64,000 bases of DNA from Frankia casuarinae (GTDB taxonomy: Bacteria; Actinomycetota; Actinomycetes; Frankiales; Frankiaceae), in contig NC_007777.1 of the NCBI RefSeq assembly GCF_000013345.1, positions 62,001 through 126,000 on the forward strand. The letters are read 5' to 3'. The translations under genes and the position numbers were made by a program. Below are positions 16,169-19,904 of the stretch, one piece after another (position 1 is the first letter of the stretch; every line of letters starts with the position of its first letter). Under the pieces are notes generated by a model, which was not told the DNA's origin, did not search any database, and saw only the letters and a list, made by a program, of their open reading frames with translations.

Positions 16169-16789
16169 ATGGCGGGGCGTAGCGGCCGACCTGGGTGGTT
16201 GCGGGAACCGGATCCGCTCCAGAACCCCCTCGGTAGTCGGCTCGCCATCCTCGGCGCGATCGTGTTGGTGATCGGCGGGGGAGCGGCGACCCTGGCGGGC
16301 GGTGCGGATCCGGCGTCCGGGCTGCCCACGTCCACCGCTGGCGATTCTGTGTCCACCGCTGGCGATTCTGTGTCCACCGCGAACGACTCTGCCGAGCTGG
16401 CCTCCTGGTACCACGGCAGCGAGGGTCTGCGGGCCCGGGTCGCCACGGACGTCGCGGCGGCCCGGGCGTATCTGGCCGCCCAGGACGGCGCTTCCCTGCA
16501 GCCCGTCTGTGTCTCCCTCGGCACCGACACGCAGGCGGCGCTGACCGCGCCGGTGCCGCCGACCGTGGCCGCGCAGGCGCGGTTCGATGCCGGCGGCAGG
16601 GACTACGCCGCCGCTGCGGCGTCCTGCAAGCAGCTCTTCGATGGCACCCGGATCCAGGTCGGCGTGCTGCAGCAGCGCATCGCGGCGTCGTTGGCGGACG
16701 GTGACCGGGAATGGGGGGCACTGGCCGCTCTCATCGGACAGCCGATGGCGACCGCGAGTCCCCCCGCGGCGTCGGGGCGCAGCGGGTGA
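16169..16789 (+). CDS. Membrane-anchored hypothetical protein
   Basis: A 206-residue protein with a short cytoplasmic N-terminus, one membrane helix (RLAILGAIVLVIGGGAATLA, about residues 24-43) and an extracytoplasmic Ala-rich helical domain with two Cys residues that may pair. A 21-bp tandem duplication (16331-16372) doubles a STAGDSV segment just after the membrane. ATG follows AGGACGGAGGG. No family recognised. Its last 59 bp overlap the 3' end of the convergent glycosyltransferase gene. Confidence 0.65.
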   Translation: MAGRSGRPGWLREPDPLQNPLGSRLAILGAIVLVIGGGAATLAGGADPASGLPTSTAGDSVSTAGDSVSTANDSAELASWYHGSEGLRARVATDVAAARAYLAAQDGASLQPVCVSLGTDTQAALTAPVPPTVAAQARFDAGGRDYAAAAASCKQLFDGTRIQVGVLQQRIAASLADGDREWGALAALIGQPMATASPPAASGRSG

Positions 16790-18380
16790 GGCCGTGCAGG
16801 GTGCCGGTGAGCGGAAAGGTCCGGATCTCTTGCTCACACCATCCGGCCTGCCGCAGGGACGCGAGTTCGGCGGCCGTGCCCCGGAGGTCGTAGGCGAGGA
16901 TGAACAGCAGGATCCGGTTCGGCGGTTGCGGGCGGCTGCGGATCGCGCTGTCCGCGCCGTCCGCGCCGTCCTTCCCGATCACGCTCAGGAAGGTCGTCGC
17001 CGATCGGGGTACCCGGGGCCCGACCGGCGGTTCCCCGGACGATGCGTCGTCGCTGAGGTCCATGGCGTAGAGCCAGCCCGCCCGTGCCAGTCGGCCGCCG
17101 ACGATGACGAGATCGCCCGCCCGATACTCGGCGCGGGCGGCGATCGTCGCGTCGACCATGGCCTCGATCGGACGGGGATCGTGGCGTTCGTCCCATAGCG
17201 TGACGGTCCCGCCGACCGCGCAGACCGGCATCACCGCCAGCGCGATCAGGCCGACGGCCGCGGGAAGCCGCGCCGGCCCAACCAGCCTGGCTGTCTGGGC
17301 CGTGCGGGCCAGGTCGGCGACGCCGACCGCGACGATGATGGTGAGCAACGGAACCAGAAACAGGTTGGTCCGACAGGCCCCGAAGGGCCAGTAGCGTCCG
17401 GCGCTGGCCGCGAGTTGGAGCAGTTCGGCGCCGACCAAGGCGACGATAAGGATCATCCCGTCGGGGCGCCGGCGCAGTACCCGGACTCCGAGCGCCAGCG
17501 CAACCGCCGTGGCCGTCCCGACGAGCAGCGTCGGGAGGCGATGCCCCTCGAGGAGGGAGTGCACCAGATTGGGGTCATAACGGTCGATCCCGGGCGGGAC
17601 GCCACCGAGAATCGCGCCGGTCTGTTCGAGCGTGAACCGCAGGCCGCCAAGGATCCCTCGACCGGCGAGGAAGTGATCGTCCCAGAAATGGCTCGCCCGT
17701 TGGCTGGACTGGTGCGCCACAAAGATCATCATGTGGGTGCCGGTCAGGAGGAGGGCGGGGCCCACCCGTCCGGCGGTGCGCACCACGGTGCGTCGGGGCA
17801 CCGCGCGGACCAGGTCGTAGCCAGCGAGGGGAACCAGCAGAAACACCGCTGGCAGCGACAGCAGCGCCAGCGCCCCGGCCGCGGTCCGGCGTGGGAGCGT
17901 GGCCTGTCCCGTCCACAGCGCGACCACCGCGAGGGTGACCACCGCATCGAGGACGTAGGGCTTGAGCTGCGTGCCGGTGTCGACGACGGTGCCGGCGAGG
18001 GCGGTCGTCACCGTGGCGGCCACGGCCGGTACCCGGCCGGTGAACCGCCGCGCGAGCAGGAAGCCGCCCGTAGCGAGAAGCGGTAGCCAGATTCCCGCTC
18101 CGACGAGCCGGAGCGACCAGCTGTGCCAGCCGAGGATGGTCCCGGTCAGCCGGGTCAGTGCCAGTGAGCCGACCGAGGACGGGGTGTTGGCCGCCGTCAG
18201 CTCCGACCAGAACGTCGGCCACGGTTCCCCCGCGAAGTGCGGGCGCCACAGCTCGTCGTACCAGAGCGGACGATCGATCCGGGCTCGCAGCGCGATCTGC
18301 ACCCCGATCGTGGCGGCGACCAGTAGACCCACGAGCAGGACGTCGCCATGCCGTTTTTCCACAGGTTGTCCACAGGACAC
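16731..18380 (-). CDS. GT39-like integral membrane glycosyltransferase
   Basis: A 549-residue polytopic protein of the GT-C type (ArnT/PMT-like, glycosyltransferase family 39), expected to transfer a sugar from a polyprenyl-phosphate donor at the outer face of the membrane. After the first helix (GDVLLVGLLVAATIGVQIAL) comes RPLWYDELWRPHF, holding the Asp-Glu pair that marks GT-C catalytic loops. About ten further helices follow. Start is GTG 18380 or GTG 18362; both lie inside or beside the DnaA-box hairpin. Acceptor unknown. The 3' end overlaps the preceding convergent gene by 59 bp. Confidence 0.75.
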   Translation of the reverse strand: MSCGQPVEKRHGDVLLVGLLVAATIGVQIALRARIDRPLWYDELWRPHFAGEPWPTFWSELTAANTPSSVGSLALTRLTGTILGWHSWSLRLVGAGIWLPLLATGGFLLARRFTGRVPAVAATVTTALAGTVVDTGTQLKPYVLDAVVTLAVVALWTGQATLPRRTAAGALALLSLPAVFLLVPLAGYDLVRAVPRRTVVRTAGRVGPALLLTGTHMMIFVAHQSSQRASHFWDDHFLAGRGILGGLRFTLEQTGAILGGVPPGIDRYDPNLVHSLLEGHRLPTLLVGTATAVALALGVRVLRRRPDGMILIVALVGAELLQLAASAGRYWPFGACRTNLFLVPLLTIIVAVGVADLARTAQTARLVGPARLPAAVGLIALAVMPVCAVGGTVTLWDERHDPRPIEAMVDATIAARAEYRAGDLVIVGGRLARAGWLYAMDLSDDASSGEPPVGPRVPRSATTFLSVIGKDGADGADSAIRSRPQPPNRILLFILAYDLRGTAAELASLRQAGWCEQEIRTFPLTGTLHGLTRCAPTPRGDSRSPSAVR

Positions 18381-18400
18381 TGGCGTCCTGTGGACAACCT
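18355..18400. promoter_or_regulatory. DnaA-box cluster forming a 16-bp perfect hairpin
   Basis: TTGTCCACA (18366-18374), the actinobacterial DnaA-box consensus, lies opposite its inverted copy TGTGGACAA (18389-18397). Both are inside a perfect inverted repeat, 18363-18378 and 18385-18400, with a 6-nt loop. A third DnaA-like box, TTTTCCACA, abuts it at 18355. The element is 24 bp beyond the aminotransferase stop and overlaps the start of the glycosyltransferase. It could be a transcription terminator, a DnaA-binding site outside oriC, or both; no U-tract follows the hairpin. Confidence 0.6.
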
Positions 18401-18423: not shown

Positions 18424-19671
18424 TCAGTTCCGTCGTTGGGAGGGGCACTGTTGTTGGGAGGGGCGTTTGTAGGAGGCCAGGAAGCGATCGATCCGGCCGA
18501 TGGCGTCCGTGAGATCGTCCACCGCGGGCAGGGTCACGATCCGGACATGGTCGGGATGCGGCCAGTTGAAGCCGCTGCCCTGGACGAGCAGGATCTTCTC
18601 GGCCAACAGCAGATCGAGGACGAAGCGCTCGTCGTCCCGGATCGGGTAGACGGCGGGGTCCAGCCGGGGGAAGGCGTACAGCGCCCCCCGCGGCGGGACG
18701 CACGACACCCCGGGGATGTCGTTGAGGAGCTTCACGACCGTGTCTCGTTGTTCGCGCAGCCGGCCGCCGGGCAGGACGAGGTCCCCTGCGCCGCCGTCCT
18801 CCGTGAGGGCGGCGACCGTGGCGAACTGCCCGGGCGCGTTGGCGCACAGGCGCATGTTCGCGAGGATGTTCACTCCCTCGATGTAGCTCGAGGCGTGGCC
18901 GCGCGGACCGGACATCACCATCCACCCGGCCCGGAACCCGGCCAGCCGATAGGACTTCGACAGCCCGTTGAAGGTCATGCAGACCAGGTCCGGCGCGAGC
19001 GCTGCGGTCGCGATGTGCTCGGCGTCCTCGTAGAGGATCCGGTCGTAGATCTCATCGGACAGCAGCATCAGGTGGTGGCGGCGGGCGACCTCGACGATGT
19101 TCTCCAGCACCTGCCGGTCGTAGACGGCACCAGTCGGGTTGTTCGGGTTGATGACGACGATCGCTCGTGTCCGCGGGGTGACCTTGGCGGCGATGTCGTC
19201 GAGGTCGGGCGCCCAGCCGGCGGACTCGTCGCAGAGGTAGTGCACGGGCCGGCCACCGCACAGGCTGACCACGGCCGTCCACAGTGGATAGTCGGGCGCG
19301 GGGAGCAGCACCTCGTCGCCGTTGTTGAGCAACGCCTGCAACGACATCATGATCAGTTCGGAGACGCCGTTGCCGAGGTAGACCCCGCCGGGGTCGATGC
19401 CGGTGACCCCCTTGCGGAGGTGATAGCGCACGACCGCTTCCCGGGCGGCGAGTAGTCCCTTGGAGTCGCTGTAACCCTGTGCATCCGCAAGGTTTGCCAC
19501 GACGGCCTCGAGTACCTCCGGCGGTGCGGAGAAGCCGAACGGCGCGGGATTGCCGATGTTCAGCTTGAGGATGCGCGACCCCGCAGCTTCCAGCCGGGTC
19601 GCTTCGTCGAGGACAGGCCCACGGACGTCGTAGCAGACGTCGGCGAGCTTGTCGGACTGGGTGAACTCCAT
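18424..19671 (-). CDS. PLP-dependent aminotransferase, AlaA-like
   Basis: A class I/II aminotransferase of 415 residues, most like glutamate-pyruvate (alanine) aminotransferase AlaA. Diagnostic segments are KLNIGNPAPFGF, QGYSDSKGLLAAREAV, PDYPLWTAVVSLCGG, VINPNNPTGAVYD and the PLP lysine in LSKSYRLAGFRAGW. The start MEFTQSDKLADVCYDVRGPV matches the family; the frame continues 5' without support. The gene stands alone, with a strong hairpin beyond its stop. Upstream 19672-19904 holds no convincing gene. Confidence 0.92.
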   Translation of the reverse strand: MEFTQSDKLADVCYDVRGPVLDEATRLEAAGSRILKLNIGNPAPFGFSAPPEVLEAVVANLADAQGYSDSKGLLAAREAVVRYHLRKGVTGIDPGGVYLGNGVSELIMMSLQALLNNGDEVLLPAPDYPLWTAVVSLCGGRPVHYLCDESAGWAPDLDDIAAKVTPRTRAIVVINPNNPTGAVYDRQVLENIVEVARRHHLMLLSDEIYDRILYEDAEHIATAALAPDLVCMTFNGLSKSYRLAGFRAGWMVMSGPRGHASSYIEGVNILANMRLCANAPGQFATVAALTEDGGAGDLVLPGGRLREQRDTVVKLLNDIPGVSCVPPRGALYAFPRLDPAVYPIRDDERFVLDLLLAEKILLVQGSGFNWPHPDHVRIVTLPAVDDLTDAIGRIDRFLASYKRPSQQQCPSQRRN

Positions 19672-19904
19672 CTGCCCAGGGTAGGTGGGCTGTCCAGCGG
19701 ATTTTCGACCGGTCGGCGGCGTGCCGGCGAGTTCACCCCGAGGGAGTGACTCCGAACTCGACGGTTGCGTGCTCGTCCGGCCTGATCGGCTGATCCCTGT
19801 CCGGTCACCGAGAGCCGTGCCGCTCCTTGGCACGAAGATTGACGATATTCGCCTTGAGATCGATCGTATCGATGAGACCGATCTTGACCTGTGATGGAGC
19901 TGGA

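Follow-up and report, generated by a model that had tools for sequence, protein, structure and literature searches.

A conserved array of three putative DnaA boxes about 80 kb from oriC in Frankia casuarinae

On the chromosome of Frankia casuarinae, the junction between an aminotransferase gene (AT) and a predicted membrane-protein gene ("GT") carries two exact TTGTCCACA boxes, which face each other within a 16-bp perfect inverted repeat, and a third box, TTTTCCACA, 11 bp off (start to start). Is this an RNA hairpin that happens to resemble DnaA boxes, or a site at which DnaA acts outside oriC?

The array and its surroundings

The window, that is, the whole stretch of 64,000 nucleotides analyzed, runs from base 62001 to base 126000 of one 5,433,628-bp contig, on which the site lies at G000:C1:80366 in genome coordinates. 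Read from the AT side, the array is written > N14 < N2 <, with start-to-start steps of 23 bp from box I to box II and 11 bp from box II to box III (Table 1). A sequence-only reading had described the facing pair, the repeat and the adjacent third box, and we found all of them where it had placed them. That reading had also noted that dnaA, dnaN and rpmH were not near. None of them lies in the window, but the site is not remote from the origin: the start of dnaA is at about base 116 of this chromosome and a facing pair of boxes lies at rnpA near the other end (5432503), so that oriC falls where the contig begins and ends, about 80 kb from the site.

Table 1. Features of the array and its neighboring genes, in window coordinates
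Feature	Position	Strand	Remarks
Box I, first after AT in AT/GT transcription direction	18389..18397	-	exact TTGTCCACA; 98% column identity in Frankia relatives
N14 spacer between facing boxes	18375..18388	.	fixed length in 13/13 Frankia; sequence divergent (70%)
Box II, faces box I	18366..18374	+	exact TTGTCCACA
N2 spacer	18364..18365	.	GG on +, CC on -; invariant in Frankia alignment
Box III, in tandem with box II at an 11-bp step	18355..18363	+	TTTTCCACA; relatives usually TTGTCCACA or TTATCCACA
16-bp perfect inverted repeat, 6-nt loop	18363..18400 (arms 18363-18378 / 18385-18400)	.	RNA fold z = -3.96; part outside boxes unconserved
AT, class I/II aminotransferase gene	18424..19833	-	upstream neighbor in all examined Frankiaceae keeping the array
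GT, predicted membrane-protein gene	16731..18380	-	candidate starts: GTG 18380 or box III GTG (18362)

The longest reading frame of GT does begin at a GTG inside the repeat (18380), as had been proposed, but another in-frame GTG lies within box III, and in other Frankiaceae the gene starts up to ~150 bp further on. Its earlier label of glycosyltransferase found no backing, as profile searches with the protein returned no Pfam or NCBIfam match. A paralogue of GT, whose protein is 41% identical, is located at G000:C1:5427812-5429539, no more than about 6 kb from oriC.

TTGTCCACA is the listed high-affinity DnaA box of S. coelicolor (Streptomyces) and M. tuberculosis (Mycobacterium) (PMC4285127). 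It occurs twice in the window, where 0.08 copies are expected, and 24 times in the genome. The genome-wide search for the motif pair suggested by the sequence-only reading recovered only two facing exact pairs at most 30 bp apart, one at this site (80366) and one at rnpA/oriC, whereas the density of boxes predicts about 0.0008. These two excesses rule out chance, and a repeat family was rejected as the strict triad is found once in this genome. Exact boxes cluster toward the origin: 10 of 24 are no farther than 100 kb from oriC (p 6e-9), and 4 of 18 when the ±5 kb around oriC are left out (p 0.003). Tandem DnaA boxes TTATCCACA, TTTTCCACA and TTGTCCACA, 45 and 84 bp apart, are also present at G000:C1:35671-35808, 36 kb from oriC.

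Conservation and recurrence of the triad

The arrangement > N14 < N2 < was found between AT and GT in 13 of 13 Frankia genomes. In a 12-genome Frankia alignment, from which all identity figures derive, mean column identity was 98% for box I, 97% for box II, 94% for box III and 100% for the N2 spacer, while the N14 spacer (70%) fell below the flanking sequence (73-82%). Genome G005, whose arrangement was read from its printed sequence, has the same inner arrangement plus one extra box, and the more degenerate triad of G007 keeps the spacings of 14 and 2. The Frankiaceae genera g2 (5/5 checked) and g6 (7/7 checked) carry > N12-14 < N4 < at the AT-GT junction. Distances to AT and GT vary in three Frankia genomes (G001, G005 and G007) and again in g2 and g6, with the triad geometry constant throughout. 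In genus g3, all five genomes checked have neither the triad nor a GT adjoining AT. A TTATCCACA N14 TGTGGATAA version was found nowhere else in Frankiaceae. The triad lies 73-85 kb from dnaA in Frankia and ~110-120 kb in the other genera, where it is on the other chromosome arm. The AT-GT block and dnaB are on different sides of oriC in Frankia (g1) but share one side in g2 and g6, which is consistent with an inversion around oriC.

The locus thus has the features of a DnaA-box cluster outside oriC, namely several near-matches to the host's high-affinity box, nearness to oriC (~80 kb from dnaA) and retention of boxes and arrangement in relatives (13/13 Frankia, 5/5 g2 and 7/7 g6, but 0/5 g3). 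The conservation check suggested earlier was borne out, with the triad in every Frankia genome and boxes and arrangement also in g2 and g6.

These comparisons bear directly on whether the element is an RNA hairpin or terminator following AT, its likeness to DnaA boxes being incidental, which we regard as very improbable. The inverted repeat folds strongly in this genome (z -3.96), and some double changes in spacer pairs (columns 16-18 with 25-27) give a weak covariation signal. However, the box columns show zero compensated changes across relatives, the outer spacer pairing is missing in most relatives, perfect pairing is lost between the g6 boxes, and conservation extends to the unpaired third box. 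Pairing outside the boxes is specific to few genomes. The hairpin lacks the U tract that follows the stem of an intrinsic terminator, no terminator-like site was detected there, and a search of Rfam gave no match. In view of the uncompensated box changes, the missing U tract and the empty Rfam search, we rejected a hairpin or terminator as the conserved unit. On the aligned genomes, the conserved unit is the three-box array and the hairpin is not, so that the perfect hairpin emphasized by the sequence-only reading gives way to the boxes.

To gauge its spread, we scanned 84,980 species genomes with the strict pattern TTGTCCACA N14 TGTGGANAA N2 TGTGGA and obtained 27 matches, a figure that under-samples other spacings as the pattern was built from Frankia. 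The Frankia matches lie at AT-GT, the matches that carry the labels Nocardiopsis, Streptomonospora and Glycomyces fuscus lie at a dnaB-MATE junction, and the one remaining match is in an unrelated Desulfitobacteriaceae MAG; reversed-pattern controls gave almost no matches. In a class-wide search with free spacing, N14/N2 was the commonest arrangement, yet it was confined to Frankia and the Nocardiopsis-type groups. The Nocardiopsis-type triad lies 35-37 kb from dnaA and is an independent instance of the arrangement, at a different locus and in a different family. That the Frankia triad is chance sequence carried along by conserved neighbors is scarcely credible: the flanking genes are indeed syntenic, but the boxes outconserve their surroundings while the fixed-length spacer diverges, and the triad recurs independently in another family.

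Comparison with characterized DnaA-binding sites

The best experimental parallel, by analogy, is mycobacterial. DnaA pull-down in M. tuberculosis recovered five genomic regions, including the region upstream of dnaB and the Rv0010c-Rv0011c palindrome, which consists of two DnaA-like boxes; ChIP-seq in M. smegmatis recovered homologues of the same five regions, and variants of the palindrome change growth and isoniazid response (PMC7738170). Like the Frankia triad, this crgA palindrome is intergenic, holds two DnaA boxes and lies outside yet near oriC. It differs in its gene junction and in its distance of ~14-16 kb from dnaA. At the crgA junction of one mycobacterium-like genome (L200), TTATCCACA N14 TGGGGATAA has the same 23-bp step as the Frankia triad; in three other mycobacterium-like genomes in which crgA was found, only the first box was recognized, without a partner. 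The crgA array of other families reads > N1 < N4 < (0/10/23), unlike the Frankia triad, and tblastn did not find crgA in the oriC-proximal stretches of the Frankia genome. In several families of actinomycetes, DnaA-box arrays occupy the junction of crgA and ppiA (L041, L042, L051, L052 and L053), some beside a ACACGCGTGT-like palindrome; they are probably the counterpart of mycobacterial Rv0010c-Rv0011c.

Clusters of DnaA boxes are reportedly named D78, H24 and H69 in Streptomyces (attributed to Smulczyk-Krawczyszyn 2006) and DBC in Bacillus (attributed to Okumura 2012). These resemble the Frankia triad as oriC-proximal clusters, a likeness drawn from their description in passages of PMC5742627 and PMC4585315, according to which the S. 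coelicolor and B. subtilis clusters repress untimely initiation. A Streptomyces-like genome (L100; G051:C1:4406103-4406414, 4415483-4415516) has three facing pairs, each with a step of 25 bp from start to start (N16), at a distance of about 90-100 kb from oriC; they may be related to the known D78-type clusters. E. coli datA is likewise a DnaA-box cluster outside oriC, which itself lowers ATP-DnaA, but it comprises five boxes and an IHF site more than 450 kb from oriC (PMC4585315, PMC4451416), compared with three boxes at ~80 kb in Frankia.

The topology of the triad recalls a system of opposite effect. Both E. coli DARS elements place box I opposite boxes II and III with equal spacing in each (PMC5742627), and the DARS1 and DARS2 cores read > N5 < N3 <, with start-to-start steps of 14 and 12 bp. 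The Frankia triad, known from its core boxes alone, likewise has one box opposite two tandem ones and a similar tandem step (11 versus 12 bp), but its box I-II step is 23 bp instead of 14; it therefore resembles the DARS core while departing from its fixed spacing. A DARS-like array would bind ADP-DnaA, and its facing protomers would force ADP release, regenerating ATP-DnaA and promoting initiation. The array at rplI-dnaB in this genome, almost exactly DARS-spaced (15,11; 14,12 in g3), lends this idea some weight, but any facing assembly could use such a topology, DARS2 requires IHF and Fis, and the literature that we found reports no DARS in Actinomycetes, so we consider a DARS-like role unlikely. 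The rplI-dnaB intergenic region (G000:C1:5394606-5394693) itself holds an array of 3-5 DnaA boxes conserved across Frankiaceae. Its last three boxes are spaced 15 and 11 in Frankia and 14 with 12 or 13 in g3, in some g3 genomes matching the E. coli DARS core (14,12); outlying boxes lie about 53 and 65 bp further, with near-constant spacings of about 65, 53, 11 and 15 bp in Frankia and g6. In mycobacteria, DnaA binds upstream of dnaB (PMC7738170).

It is also doubtful that the triad is an operator through which bound DnaA represses or activates GT, so that a cell-surface gene would follow the cell cycle. In most Frankia the GT start falls within the triad or directly after it, and g3 has neither the boxes nor a GT adjoining AT. 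On the other hand, the triad lies at differing distances from AT and GT in G001, G005, G007 and g2/g6 while its geometry holds, Nocardiopsis carries the same triad at dnaB-MATE, and the M. tuberculosis genes beside the bound palindrome are unchanged in expression in dnaA mutants (PMC7738170). The coupling of DnaA to GT proposed by the sequence-only reading thus stays possible but is weakened by the constant geometry. Its central proposal of functional DnaA boxes outside oriC is, by sequence and by analogy, well supported by the conserved boxes and spacing, their uniqueness, the proximity to oriC and the experimentally bound mycobacterial counterparts.

A putative brake on re-initiation

Taken together, the sequence comparisons indicate that the triad very probably serves in the control of chromosome replication and is not a mere hairpin. 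Given its bound mycobacterial counterparts, it is highly likely to be a DnaA-binding site. That it acts as a negative regulator of initiation, in the manner of D78, DBC or datA, we put by analogy at a probability of about 0.5. On this preferred reading, a compact site outside oriC, three boxes arranged as > N14 < N2 < about 80 kb from the origin, would bind three DnaA protomers in a fixed geometry, a tandem pair plus one facing protomer about two helical turns off. Duplicated early in replication, the triad would hold or inactivate DnaA and so limit re-initiation at oriC. We favor a negative role because the characterized oriC-proximal clusters of Gram-positive bacteria act negatively, and because a locus so close to oriC is duplicated shortly after initiation. 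By analogy, datA-like titration is plausible.

Several points count against a negative role. Three boxes alone would titrate little DnaA, the topology is like that of DARS, whose action is opposite, and the nearness to oriC is partly inherited synteny. Judging from the genomes compared, the triad is also dispensable in g3, since that genus is without the site.

Domain I of Actinomycete DnaA forms a head-to-head dimer (PMC13270200), and such a dimer could bridge the facing boxes of the triad. A broader idea, which we hold to be distinctly improbable, is that Actinomycetes have a portable, geometry-defined DnaA module, in which two facing boxes lie 22-23 bp from each other and a third stands in tandem. 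Such a module would change the nucleotide state of DnaA in a DARS-like or datA-like way without E. coli architecture, sit at oriC-proximal junctions that differ by family, and act together with the DARS-spaced array upstream of dnaB.

The limits on initiation in Actinomycetes are poorly understood. A short site of fixed geometry, conserved across Frankiaceae and found at another locus in the Nocardiopsis-type group, offers a defined DNA target on which titration and control of nucleotide state may be told apart. The triad may also help in understanding the DnaA palindrome of mycobacteria, which influences growth and drug response.
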